A stretch of 64,000 nt of DNA from Pseudooceanicola sp. (GTDB taxonomy: Bacteria > Pseudomonadota > Alphaproteobacteria > Rhodobacterales > Rhodobacteraceae), in contig NZ_JARGNH010000005.1 of the NCBI RefSeq assembly GCF_029213205.1, positions 1 to 64,000 of the forward strand. The letters run 5' to 3'. The position numbers were made by a program, and so were the translations under genes. The notes beneath the pieces are model-generated. The model worked only from the letters and a program-made list of their open reading frames with translations. It made no database searches and was not told the DNA's origin. Position 1 is the stretch's first letter. Each line of letters starts with the position of its first letter. Shown here one piece after another: positions 1,451 through 5,963 of this stretch.

Positions 1451-2842
1451 TCAATACCGATAATGTTCCGGCTTGAATGGACCTTCGGGAGGAACACCAA
1501 TGTAATCCGCCTGCTCTTTCGCCAGTTTGGTCAGCTTGACGCCGATCCGGTCCAGATGCAGCCGCGCGACCTTTTCATCCAGATGCTTGGGCAGGATATA
1601 GACGCCGGGCTGATACTCCTCACCCTTGGTCCAGAGCTCGATCTGCGCCAGCACCTGATTGGTGAAGCTCGCCGACATCACGAATGATGGATGGCCGGTG
1701 GCATTGCCGAGGTTCAACAAGCGCCCCTGGGACAGCAGGATGATCCGACTGCCGCTGGGCATCTCGATCATATCCACCTGGTCCTTGATATTGGTCCATT
1801 TATGGTTCTTCAGGCTGGCCACCTGAATTTCATTATCAAAATGGCCAATGTTGCCGACGATCGCCATATCCTTCATCGCCCGCAGATGTTCGATGCGGAT
1901 CACGTCCTTGTTGCCGGTGGTGGTGACAAAGATATCGGCGCTGTCGACCGCATCCTCGAGCGTCACCACCTCATAGCCATCCATCGCCGCCTGCAGGGCG
2001 CAGATCGGATCGACCTCGGTCACCTTGACCCGTGCACCGGCGCCGGACAGCGACGCGGCACAGCCCTTGCCGACATCGCCATAGCCGCAGACGACCGCGA
2101 CCTTGCCAGCCATCATCGTGTCGGTGGCGCGGCGGATGCCGTCGACCAGCGATTCCTTGCAACCGTATTTGTTGTCGAACTTCGACTTGGTGACAGAGTC
2201 GTTCACGTTGATTGCCGGGAACGGCAGCTGCCCCTTCTTGTGCAGATCATAGAGACGGTGCACGCCGGTGGTGGTTTCCTCGGACACGCCCTTGATCGCC
2301 TCGCGGGTCCTGGTGAACCAGCCGGGGGTTTCGGCCATGCGTTTCTTGATCTGGGCAAAAATCGCCTCTTCCTCTTCCGAGGTCGGCACCTCGATCAGCC
2401 CGGTCTCGCCCGCCTCGACCCGTGCGCCCAGCAACACATAAAGTGTCGCGTCGCCGCCATCGTCGAGGATCATGTTCGCACCTTCGGGGAACATGAACGA
2501 CCGGTCGAGGTAATCCCAATGTTCGACCAGGGACTGACCCTTGATCGCGAACACCGGGGTGCCGCCTGCGGCAATCGCCGCCGCGGCGTGGTCCTGGGTC
2601 GAAAAGATGTTGCACGAGGCCCAGCGCACGTCGGCGCCCAGCGCCACCAGGGTTTCGATAAGCACCGCGGTCTGGATCGTCATGTGCAATGATCCGACGA
2701 TCCGCGCGCCTTTCAGCGGCTGACTGTCGCCATATTCGGCGCGGCAAGCCATCAGTCCGGGCATCTCGGTTTCCGCGATATCCAGCTCCTTGCGGCCAAA
2801 GGCTGCGAGCGAGATATCTTTGACGATATAGTCTGTGGCCAT
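1451..2842 (-). CDS. ahcY: adenosylhomocysteinase (S-adenosyl-L-homocysteine hydrolase)
   Basis: It hydrolyses S-adenosylhomocysteine, the by-product of SAM-dependent methylation, to adenosine and homocysteine. It is cytosolic and NAD-dependent. With this start the protein has 463 residues, the usual bacterial length. Visible features are the N-terminal substrate domain ([25 protein letters not shown]), the Rossmann NAD site ([13 protein letters not shown]), and the family's C-terminal KPEHYRY end. An ATG at 2854 would add four residues. The start at 2842 is preferred because the decayed copy of this region near 4055 keeps an AGGA Shine-Dalgarno before the equivalent ATG but has lost the upstream ATG. 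It is divergent from an FkbM-type methyltransferase, whose by-product it would recycle. Confidence 0.97.
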
Positions 2843-2974
2843 TTGGCTATCCATCCCGATTAGGTTTGCTCGGCGGCGTAACAGGTCTTGATTAACGCTT
2901 CAACTGTCAGGACAATTCGGACTACCAAGCAGAAAATGACCTGGAAAACCGGGCAGACCGAGGCAGAGCACACC

Positions 2975-3772
2975 ATGACTCCGCAATCCGCCCTACAATC
3001 GGACGATGCCGAAGATGGCATTGGTGGCGTCCGGTTGTTGCAGCCTAACGTCACCGCTGCGCCGCGCGGTGTGCCGTCGTTCGATCACATGATCGCGTCC
3101 AATCAATATGGCTTTTATTGCATTCCGCAAGCCTATGCCAAACGCAAGGTGCCGACGGTCCTGCGTCAGGGACAGGTCTATGAACCCGACACGCTGGCGC
3201 TGATGCGGCGCAAGTCCGGGCTGGGCGACGTGATCGCGGGTGGCGGCTTCATCGGCGACTTTTTTCCTGCACTCAGCGAAGCGCTGGCTGCCACCGCCGT
3301 CCTGCACAGCTTTGAACCCAACCCGCTGAGCCATGAGGCCGCCTGCCACACCATTGGGTTGAACCGGCTGGAAAACGTCTGCCTGCACCCCGTTGCGGTG
3401 GGTGAGTCGCCGGGGACATTGCCGCTGTTGGTGTCACGCGGTGCAAATAACGCGATGGCCGCAAGGGCCAAGATCGTCGCCGACCGTATCGAAGGCGAGA
3501 CCATCGACGTGCCCGTCACGACCCTGGACAACCTGATCGGCAAGGACCGTGCGGTTTCGATCCTGCAGCTGGATATCGAAGGCCACGAACTTCCTGCCGT
3601 ATTGGGAGCGAAGCGGATCATCAGCCGCAACCGGCCGATGATCATACTCGAGGCCGCAAGACGGCATCGTCAGAAGTTTTACGAGCGCGCCCTGAATCAG
3701 CACTTTCCCGACATCGGATACAGGATGGCCGGGGTGATTGAACGCAACTGCATTTTCCTGCCGCAAGGCTAG
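2975..3772 (+). CDS. FkbM family SAM-dependent methyltransferase (copy 1)
   Basis: This 265-residue protein has the FkbM methyltransferase layout. A glycine-rich SAM-site region (GDVIAGGGFIGDFF, near residue 80) comes first, then FEPNP, then a C-terminal LQLDIEGHE block that keeps the acidic residues of the family's D-x-E-G motif. Known relatives O-methylate sugars or other small hydroxyl compounds; the substrate here cannot be told. In-frame starts exist at 2888 (TTG) and 2936 (ATG). The ATG at 2975 is chosen because it has GAGG upstream and aligns with the start of the paralogue at 4183 in the duplicated segment. It is divergent from ahcY. A diverged copy lies 0.4 kb downstream. Confidence 0.82.
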   Translation: MTPQSALQSDDAEDGIGGVRLLQPNVTAAPRGVPSFDHMIASNQYGFYCIPQAYAKRKVPTVLRQGQVYEPDTLALMRRKSGLGDVIAGGGFIGDFFPALSEALAATAVLHSFEPNPLSHEAACHTIGLNRLENVCLHPVAVGESPGTLPLLVSRGANNAMAARAKIVADRIEGETIDVPVTTLDNLIGKDRAVSILQLDIEGHELPAVLGAKRIISRNRPMIILEAARRHRQKFYERALNQHFPDIGYRMAGVIERNCIFLPQG

Positions 3773-3847
3773 GGCGAGCACGGATTACGCATTCCGATGG
3801 CGCGATTGGGTCTGGCTGCCACGGGTCTCGCAATCCGAGGGGTCTAC

Positions 3848-3913
3848 ATGGCACAATCGCACGCTTGGCCAGGCATGCTGTCTGGGCGACGGCTTGATCT
3901 GATCAACCCGACG
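3848..3913 (+). pseudogene. 5' fragment of the HD-hydrolase gene (duplication remnant)
   Basis: Twenty-two codons beginning with ATG at 3848 match the first 23 codons of the intact HD-hydrolase gene at 4888: MAQSHAW against MAKQPRAW, then LSGRRLDLINPT against LSGRRLDLLDPT. I count about 15 identical residues and one codon lost. Similarity stops at the CCGACG at 3908-3913, where sequence like the ahcY 5' end begins. The fragment sits directly after copy 1 of the FkbM gene, exactly as the intact HD gene follows copy 2. Together with the next feature it fills the 410-base gap between the two FkbM genes. Confidence 0.85.
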
Positions 3914-4055
3914 ATCCGCGCAGCTTTCAGTGGCCGGCTTCGGCCATATTCCTTGCGCAAACCTTCAACCCCGGCATTTCGGTTTCGACGATATCCGGTT
4001 CCTTGCGGCCCTATCCGGCAAGATTGAAGTCTTTGACGGTATAATCTGTGACCAT
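3908..4055 (-). pseudogene. decayed 5' fragment of ahcY (duplication remnant)
   Basis: Read on the minus strand from ATG at 4055, the sequence gives MVTDYTVKDFNLAG, a stop, then GRKEPDIVETEMPGL. The intact AhcY start is [20 protein letters not shown] and [13 protein letters not shown] similarity to 2694-2842 is continuous, with one net base lost, and extends beyond the start into the ahcY upstream region (to about 4104, matching up to about 2890). The piece ends at CCGACG, about 50 codons into ahcY. It is not a functional gene. About 80 bases further, to 4182, separate it from copy 2; a TGAGGG-containing stretch and the AGGAGG ribosome site lie there and nothing else is seen. Confidence 0.88.
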
Positions 4056-4182
4056 TTGGCTATCCTGGGCTCGCTACATTTCGGTGCGGCGTAACATTCC
4101 TTGTGTGACGCGGCCAGTTGGTGCCTATTTCCGTAACGTGAGGGTATAAACCCTGGCCGCAACAGACGGCAGGAGGTCAAGA

Positions 4183-4839
4183 ATGGCCGGTGAGGCAGAA
4201 AAATCCCAAGAATTCGCGCTTGATGCCGATGCGCCGGTTGTTACCGGGCCAGAGGCTGAGGCCGAGGCGGGCGATCCGCGGGTCATCGCCTTTTTGATGC
4301 GCCACGCCGGGCGCGGTGACATCATTCATTCAGGGATCTTCCCCGGCGGCGCGCTGGTGCCGCTGTCTGCGGGCCTGGCGGAAACCGCTACACTCTGGGT
4401 GTTTCAGCCGGATCCCGACACCCATCGTGCCGTGGGTCAGGCGATCACCGACGACCGGTTGTGGAACGTCAGCCTGCGGCGCGCGGTGCCCTCATCCGAG
4501 CCCGGGCGAGTGTTCCTGCCCAGCGCCGGGCTTGATACTGGACCGGGGGCGTTTGTCCCGGCTGATTTCAACGCCCGCGAAACGGTCGAGACCCTGCGGC
4601 TGGATGACGCCATTCCCGGCAATCGCAAGGTCTCGGTCATGCTGCTGGAGGGCAATGGGCATCAGGTCCAGGCGCTGATCGGGGCACGCAGGCTGATTGC
4701 GCGCTGCCGCCCGGTTCTGGTGATTTCGGCCTTCCGCCGCCCGCGCTGGTTCGCCAAGAATTTTGGCGCGCTCGGCTACCGGGTGCGGGGCCGTCTGCGC
4801 GACAAGCTGGTGATTTCCGTCGACCCGGTTGATTTCTGA
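4183..4839 (+). CDS. diverged FkbM-like paralogue (copy 2), probably not a methyltransferase
   Basis: This 218-residue protein aligns along its length with the FkbM protein encoded at 2975-3772. Examples are LMRHAGRGDII against LMRRKSGLGDVI, FQPDP against FEPNP, and GARRLIARCRPVLVI against GAKRIISRNRPMIIL. The glycine-rich SAM motif has become GDIIHSGIFPGGAL and the D-x-E-G motif has become LLEGNGHQ, so residues expected for SAM binding and chemistry are changed. The N-terminus is replaced by an acidic, alanine-rich stretch. The reading frame is intact and has a strong AGGAGG site 7 bases before the ATG, so it is still expressed or only recently freed from use. It arose by the tandem duplication described in the findings. 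Confidence 0.72.
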   Translation: MAGEAEKSQEFALDADAPVVTGPEAEAEAGDPRVIAFLMRHAGRGDIIHSGIFPGGALVPLSAGLAETATLWVFQPDPDTHRAVGQAITDDRLWNVSLRRAVPSSEPGRVFLPSAGLDTGPGAFVPADFNARETVETLRLDDAIPGNRKVSVMLLEGNGHQVQALIGARRLIARCRPVLVISAFRRPRWFAKNFGALGYRVRGRLRDKLVISVDPVDF

Positions 4840-4887
4840 CGCCGCTTCGCGACATTGAGCGCGAACACGTCGCGACCGGGGAACACA

Positions 4888-5484
4888 ATGGCCAAACAGC
4901 CACGCGCATGGCAACGGATGCTTTCGGGCCGAAGGCTTGACCTGCTTGACCCGACGCCGATGGATATCGAGATCGAGGACATTGCCCATGGCCTGGCCTT
5001 TGTCGCCCGCTGGAATGGCCAGACGCTGGGCGATTTTGCCTATTCGGTGGCCGAGCATTCGCTGTTGGTCGAAACCATCTATGCCAGGTTAGAGCCGAAA
5101 TCACCGGTGAAATGGCGCCTTGCCGCATTGCTGCACGACGCGCCGGAATATGTGATCGGCGACATGATTTCGCCGGTCAAGGCGGCGGTCGGACCGGGGT
5201 ATTCCGTGCTCGACAACCGGCTGACAGCGGCGATCCATCTGCGCTTTGGCCTGCCTGCCGCGATCCCCAAGGCGGTGAAATCCCGGATCAAGACCGCCGA
5301 CAAGGTCAGCGCCTATATGGAGGCGGTGCAGATCGCCGGATTCTCCGTGACTGAGGCGGCCAAGTTGTTCGGCACCCCGGACCCCGCCCTGATCGAGGGG
5401 TTGAGCATCCGGCTACGACCGCCGGTTCAGGCGCGCGACGATTACACCGCGCGCCATAGGACGCTGTTGGCACAGATGACATGA
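4888..5484 (+). CDS. HD domain phosphohydrolase (YfbR-like)
   Basis: A 198-residue HD-superfamily metal-dependent phosphohydrolase. The metal-binding pattern is visible: H in VAEHSLLVE, the HD pair in AALLHDAPEYVIGD, and a later D in KTADKVSAYMEA. The arrangement resembles the YfbR type of 5'-deoxynucleotidase, but the substrate is not certain. The ATG at 4888 has GGGGAA upstream; a TTG at 4855 in the same frame is less likely. The stop overlaps the next start by four bases (ATGA), so it is co-transcribed with the GNAT gene. Its first 22-23 codons exist in a second, broken copy at 3848. Confidence 0.85.
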   Translation: MAKQPRAWQRMLSGRRLDLLDPTPMDIEIEDIAHGLAFVARWNGQTLGDFAYSVAEHSLLVETIYARLEPKSPVKWRLAALLHDAPEYVIGDMISPVKAAVGPGYSVLDNRLTAAIHLRFGLPAAIPKAVKSRIKTADKVSAYMEAVQIAGFSVTEAAKLFGTPDPALIEGLSIRLRPPVQARDDYTARHRTLLAQMT

Positions 5485-5963
5485 TGCATGTCCGTAAATC
5501 CGGGCCGTTCGACGCCGCGCCGATCGCCCGACTGCTGAACGAGATCATCGCAATTGGTGGCACCACGGCGATGACCCGGCCAGTTGATGGCGAAACCATC
5601 GCCAGATGGATGGCGTCGGATCCGCGCAATCTCTGGCATCTGGCCGAGGATGAGTCCGGCCTGTTGCTGGGGGTTCAATGGGTCGAACCTCATCCGGATC
5701 TGGGCGCCTCGGTCGCCAAGATCGCCACCTTCGCGCGGGTCGGGCGCACCGGGATCGGCATTGGATCGGCCCTGTTCGAGCGGACAAGCCGGGCGGTGAA
5801 AGCCCTGGGATACGACTGGATCAGCGCCGAAATCCGCGCGGATAATGCCGGCGGGCTGACCTATTATCAAAGCCACGGGTTTGAGGATTACGCCCGCAAA
5901 TCCGGGCAAGAACTGCACGACGGCCAGGTCGTCGACAAGGTATTGAAACGCTATAACTTGTGA
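5481..5963 (+). CDS. GNAT family N-acetyltransferase
   Basis: A 160-residue acetyl-CoA-dependent acetyltransferase of the GNAT fold. It shows an N-terminal strand-helix unit (RLLNEIIAIGG), the acetyl-CoA pyrophosphate loop as GRTGIGIGSALFE around residue 95, and a C-terminal ADNAGGLTYYQSHGFED segment typical of GNATs. The layout resembles phosphinothricin/amino-acid acetyltransferases, but the substrate is unknown. It overlaps the HD-hydrolase gene by four bases and is presumably translated by coupling. About 200 bases without a gene follow, containing one hairpin (6119-6144). Confidence 0.85.
   Translation: MMHVRKSGPFDAAPIARLLNEIIAIGGTTAMTRPVDGETIARWMASDPRNLWHLAEDESGLLLGVQWVEPHPDLGASVAKIATFARVGRTGIGIGSALFERTSRAVKALGYDWISAEIRADNAGGLTYYQSHGFEDYARKSGQELHDGQVVDKVLKRYNL

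Follow-up and report, generated by a model that had tools for sequence, protein, structure and literature searches.

Fragments of ahcY and an HD-domain gene joined between two FkbM genes of different type in Pseudooceanicola sp.

The window analysed here is a stretch of 64,000 nucleotides from Pseudooceanicola sp. (contig NZ_JARGNH010000005.1, positions 1 to 64,000). It carries two FkbM genes, FkbM1 and FkbM2, between ahcY and the gene of an HD-domain hydrolase. Decayed fragments of both flanking genes, HD' and ahcY', lie between the FkbM genes and are joined at the hexamer CCGACG. A previous reading, made from the letters of the window only, took this arrangement for the scar of a tandem duplication that had created FkbM2. 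The scar is real: a fragment of the start of an HD gene is joined there to a fragment of the start of an ahcY gene. However, the two FkbM genes belong to different types, and their divergence does not agree with the age of the scar. The features of the locus are as follows.

1451..2854, minus strand: ahcY (S-adenosylhomocysteine hydrolase), intact outer copy; PF05221 482 bits, PF00670 263.8 bits; its start codon is probably the internal ATG at 2842 (MATDY)
2975..3772, plus strand: FkbM1, type-A FkbM methyltransferase; PF05050 58.9 bits, TIGR01444 75.8 bits, type-A profile 342 bits
3848..3913, plus strand: HD', decayed copy of the first 23 HD codons; matches 4905-4956 at 76.9% over 52 bp
3908..3913, no strand: junction hexamer CCGACG, found in both parents at 2694-2699 and 4951-4956
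3908..4111, minus strand: ahcY', decayed copy of the first ~50 ahcY codons with 57 nt of leader; 77.4% over 159 bp
4183..4839, plus strand: FkbM2, degenerate type-B FkbM protein; type-B profile 142 bits against 85 for type A
4888..5484, plus strand: HD-domain (YfbR-like) hydrolase gene, intact outer copy; PF12917 34.8 bits, PF01966 24.4 bits

In blastn comparisons, positions 3908-4065 align with 2694-2852 in ahcY (E 5e-31), and positions 3862-3913 align with 4905-4956 in the HD gene (E 1e-6). The hexamer stands at 2694-2699, 3908-3913 and 4951-4956. With MATD as the start of ahcY, position 2694 falls at about its codon 50; codon 23 of HD ends at position 4956. Taken without correction from the ATG at 4055-4053, ahcY' meets TAG at codon 15 and contains small indels; HD' is one codon short and its frame is still open (MAQSHAWPGMLSGRRLDLINPT). 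The sequence-only reading was right about these coordinates, about CCGACG at three matching points and about the stop at codon 15, all of which the alignments reproduce. Against their parents the two pieces of the scar differ at 28 of 142 codon positions 1 and 2 (about 20%); for ahcY' the count is 19 of 98, implying a decay q near 0.2. The likeness of the ahcY' leader reaches about 4111, 57 nt past the start codon of the fragment (whole spacer, z 5.0). The distal 70 nt of the ahcY'-FkbM2 spacer give z 0.8, and no recognisable kinship to the ahcY-FkbM1 spacer is found beyond the 57 nt.

An illegitimate join at a microhomology of 6 bp is well supported, as had been claimed. When breakpoints in ahcY and the HD gene are placed at random, an overlap of at least 6 bp arises in 0.0023 of 200,000 draws. 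The logic of the layout, with whole outer genes (ahcY on the left, HD on the right) and decaying inner partial copies, is likewise well supported and agrees with the earlier account. Tandem duplication in bacteria leaves outer genes intact and inner copies partial, as in the window. A search of positions 2500-5500 against Rfam, with E up to 1, found no structured RNA in the scar. The one match, to the BcKCsr2 RNA, is sub-threshold (20.8 of 40 bits) and located inside FkbM2.

The repeated unit had also been said to include the FkbM gene, and this part is not confirmed. The FkbM1 and FkbM2 proteins are homologous, with a local score of 237 against a maximum of 56 in 200 shuffles and 33% identity. 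At the DNA level, blastn gives one 25-bp match at E 0.009, which is off register, and shorter ones with E above 1. Remnants of an FkbM N-terminus between FkbM1 and FkbM2 were also sought; the best E-value among many tries was 0.04, which was taken as chance.

Profile scores assign the two genes to different types. On a type-A profile built without the FkbM1 of the window and without that of a second genome of the genus, G018, the two FkbM1 proteins score 342 and 333 bits. FkbM2 scores 142 bits on the type-B profile and 85 on the type-A profile, and its counterpart in G018 110 and 60. Adding the FkbM1 proteins to the type-A profile changes little, the FkbM2 pair then scoring 86 and 61 bits. FkbM2 also shows the type-B features of a six-residue gap, shared by the G018 counterpart, and GDIIHxGxF. 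A first tree left out two of 37 proteins (L047, which is short, and L176, a weak match). With four further long-branch rows removed (L043, L055, L178, L179), the resulting 31-protein tree has a 100/100 branch that isolates type A, and FkbM2 falls with type B. A clade forced to hold both FkbM1 and both FkbM2 proteins is worse by 30 log units (approximately unbiased test, AU, p 0.004); a forced pairing of FkbM1 with FkbM2 of the window alone is worse by 70 log units (AU p 1.5e-8). By these sequence comparisons FkbM2 is a different, site-resident FkbM type, type B, and not a copy of FkbM1.

The ages of the genes and of the scar can also be compared. Of 422 first and second codon positions, 210 (50%) are different between FkbM1 and FkbM2, where two neutral branches of the scar's age predict a difference of 34% (P 4e-11; with the scar divergence set to its upper 95% limit, P 0.018). 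The divergence of the two genes is greater than expected for the scar's age even without constraint, and FkbM2, dated in this way, therefore predates the scar. These results make it very improbable that an in situ tandem duplication of ahcY-FkbM1-HD created FkbM2 from FkbM1. The layout, the hexamer, the decayed inner copies and the homology of the two proteins are what such a duplication would leave; set against them are the type-B character of FkbM2, the rejected pairings and a divergence beyond that of neutral sequence of the scar's age. In addition, G018 has the pair without the scar. The claim that this event gave rise to the second FkbM gene is thus not supported.

The order in G018 is ahcY-FkbM1-FkbM2-HD. 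A gap of 26 bp separates its two FkbM genes and shows no likeness to the scar beyond that of shuffled sequence. FkbM1 and FkbM2 of G018 are 59% and 47% identical to those of the window. In an unrooted rpoB tree, a fully supported branch separates G018 and a further genome, G006, from the genome of the window. No FkbM was seen in the gap of G006 (tblastn, E 1e-4). From this branching and the empty gap of G006 it follows that the history of the pair itself includes loss or transfer. The rpoB gene of the window's genome spans two contigs (C33 and C43) with an identical overlap of 18 codons, which is an assembly break.

The gap between ahcY and HD was scanned in 123 distinct intervals, one of which (L016) is a piece of the window, so that 122 are real. 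Many loci came from FkbM queries, and FkbM-bearing intervals are over-represented in this census. Among the 122, no FkbM was found in 93, type A in 17, type B in 10 and both in 2, these last being the window and G018. Partial copies of ahcY or HD occur in the window alone (1 of 122), other matches being of at most 26 bp. In the genus search, the HD gene is present in 22 of 22 genomes, and FkbM lies in the gap in three of them, the window's genome, G018 and G008 (tblastn, E 1e-4). The gap is a recurrent presence/absence site next to S-adenosylhomocysteine hydrolase, with type A, type B or none across genera. Three Roseovarius intervals (L089, L103, L147) have distant FkbM-like open reading frames of about 34 bits on the type-A profile, which were counted as type A.

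The history that we tentatively favour, giving it a little less than an even chance, is that two versions of the ahcY-HD site, one of type A and one of type B, were joined end to end. In different Roseobacteraceae the gap holds no FkbM, type A or type B, and in an ancestor of the strain a second version of the site would have been added to the first. One HD gene, broken at codon 23, would have been joined to another ahcY gene, broken at codon 50, at CCGACG. Homologous exchange in a flanking gene would then have left the intact ahcY on the left and the intact HD on the right. The product would be ahcY, FkbM1 (type A) and HD', followed across the junction by ahcY', FkbM2 (type B) and HD. The observed layout matches what is expected for such a join of two site alleles. 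The sequences show directly the junction with its microhomology, the difference in type of the FkbM pair and the disagreement in age with the scar; the participation of two different alleles is our inference, as is the route. A plausible route would be a linear ahcY-FkbM-HD fragment end-joined to a circle and integrated by one crossover; an alternative would be homology-facilitated illegitimate recombination (HFIR). The donor fragment could have arrived by gene transfer agent or by transformation.

Both routes have counterparts in an E. coli study (PMC3240628), according to which most HFIR junctions have microhomology of 3-10 bp, and trimmed fragments that have been ligated to circles enter by a single crossover, giving partial duplications. 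The window resembles these products in its short microhomology at the illegitimate join (6 bp against 3-10 bp there) and, as proposed, in having homology on one side; the partial duplication of a homologous segment is shared with the single-crossover products (PMC3240628). In that account HFIR products generally carry a deletion, and none is apparent in the window, so that the circle with one crossover fits better (PMC3240628). The novel joint at a short microhomology is also a feature of microhomology-mediated tandem duplication in bacteria (for example PMC11111574). The difference from that process is that neither FkbM gene of the window is a copy of the other.

The main rival starts from an FkbM pair already in place, which was duplicated and then reduced by complementary losses; we consider it possible although rather unlikely. 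Here an ahcY-FkbM1-FkbM2-HD block would have been duplicated in tandem at CCGACG, after which the left copy lost FkbM2 and the right copy lost FkbM1. The presumed parent order exists, free of the scar, in G018. The decay of the scar (28 of 142 at positions 1 and 2) is below what the divergence of the window from G018 suggests (42% at four-fold sites of ahcY), so that the scar may have formed later than the pair. As described below, no other leader compared is as similar to that of ahcY' as the window's, and HD' closely resembles the HD gene of the window. On the other side, this history requires three events, and no remnant of FkbM2 is found in the FkbM1-HD' spacer (z 0.4) nor of FkbM1 after ahcY' (z 1.2-1.3). 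The third positions of ahcY' also misfit a self-copy.

A self-copy would be expected to have third positions clearly nearest the window's ahcY, and ahcY' does not. It differs from the window's ahcY at 18 of 47 third positions (0.383) and from 97 other ahcY rows by a mean of 0.433, with 17 rows closer and 11 tied. These 97 rows (93 distinct, of 101) were not picked for likeness to the scar. As many closer rows are reached in at most 0.9% of simulated self-copies at q up to 0.30, and in 2-3% at q 0.35. When the seven codons round the gap in ahcY' are left out, 14 rows are closer and 8 tied, and the simulated share does not exceed 1.0% at q up to 0.30. The simulation is a simple one, in which mutation is uniform and other rows supply the ancestral states. 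Judged by these codons, the coding part of ahcY' lacks the likeness expected of a copy taken from the ahcY of the window. When the leader columns are included in the ranking, the window's ahcY comes first (70% against 65%), and with the coding part alone it does not.

The leader match and the third-position mismatch could be reconciled if the intact ahcY of the window had a foreign 5' part behind a native leader, after an old in situ duplication or after a stacking in which the incoming copy came to lie on the left. Over the first three 58-codon blocks of the window's ahcY, rows of the genus are nearer than others by only about 0.01, and over the following five by 0.01-0.05, as this history would have it. 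However, the trend is not significant (0.012 for codons 5-174 against 0.031 for 175-400, permutation P 0.14), and we regard the proposal as quite improbable. A mosaic breakpoint in the window's ahcY was rejected on the same weak trend.

Several results weigh against the end-to-end joining of two site alleles. Over the 75 nt by the start codon, the window's leader scores 17, anchored, against the ahcY' leader, and the best of 118 others, a separate set, scores 11. A short promoter-like element, read by eye, is apparently common to ahcY leaders across genera, and because of this the leader match is suggestive and not decisive. HD' has an identity of 0.742 to the window's HD, with 3 of 121 HD rows closer and 2 tied; on this ranking HD' may behave as a copy of the window's HD. 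Likelihood placement decides for neither side: the window branch lies 3.4 log units below the best for ahcY' (AU p 0.03; Kishino-Hasegawa test, KH, p 0.25) and 2.5 below for HD' (AU p 0.23). Type-B carriers were rejected as a source of ahcY', since their ahcY genes show no greater likeness to it than the remaining rows do (Mann-Whitney p 0.65 and 0.70). This test, the ahcY' placement and the block-wise analyses used 74 hand-picked ahcY rows, including eight loci fetched for matching the scar and about a dozen near it in the ranking. The arrangement ahcY-FkbM2-HD alone was not found in 40 relatives, 295 family genomes or 99 relatives of G018. FkbM2 is on a long branch, so that the tree alone would not settle its type; the profile scores and the shared gap agree with the tree. 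Finally, the scar-free pair of G018 means that the pair can exist without the junction, and if it arose once via the scar, G018 lost the scar cleanly.

A plasmid source was considered and rejected: among 72,556 plasmid records, tblastn at E 1e-5 found nothing that matches FkbM2, and the scar matches there only annotated ahcY genes, on two plasmids. A search for named relatives of FkbM2 in genome contigs gave 67 pattern matches, none of them confirmed. Searches for literature on FkbM in Roseobacter and on gene duplication in Pseudooceanicola, which left subscription journals mostly uncovered, returned no title concerning this locus. An acetyltransferase-like gene with sub-threshold matches alone follows the HD gene on the plus strand, and the contig begins with an open reading frame for a DDE transposase (PF01609), at 35-622.

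FkbM1 clearly belongs to the FkbM family (PF05050, TIGR01444; structure 2py6), above the curated TIGR01444 cut-off with 75.8 against 37.7 bits. FkbM2 is below both curated cut-offs (TIGR01444 23.2 against 37.7 bits, PF05050 15.3 against 22.7). It is without LD(I/V)EG(H/F)E, a segment that the nine other rows of its alignment, of types A and B, contain. Nevertheless its structural model matches the fold: the model, made from a six-row alignment (predicted local distance difference test score, pLDDT, 76.9), has 2py6 as its best PDB match (E 3.6e-7, template modelling score, TM, 0.54 by query). Its frame is open both in the window (4183-4839) and in G018 (L011, 3935-4585). Between these two genomes, positions 1 and 2 are less diverged than four-fold sites (39% against 59%). 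These features are consistent with a retained protein that is perhaps not an active methyltransferase, and possibly a non-catalytic FkbM paralogue whose conserved motifs are lost. A wider proposal, which we consider unlikely, treats the space between ahcY and HD in Roseobacteraceae as an allelic site with two alternative FkbM occupants, which illegitimate addition could stack. The stacking would be kept, in the window and in G018, since the degenerate type-B protein would be the non-catalytic half of a partnership with the active type-A enzyme.

Where parts of genes are found copied at a junction, it is tempting to see in them the birth certificate of the paralogue that they enclose. Here the same anatomy encloses two genes that are not each other's copies, and therefore anatomy alone cannot separate self-duplication from the stacking of alleles. 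If the stacking is true, it would show how a site normally holding one of two alternative genes comes to hold both.

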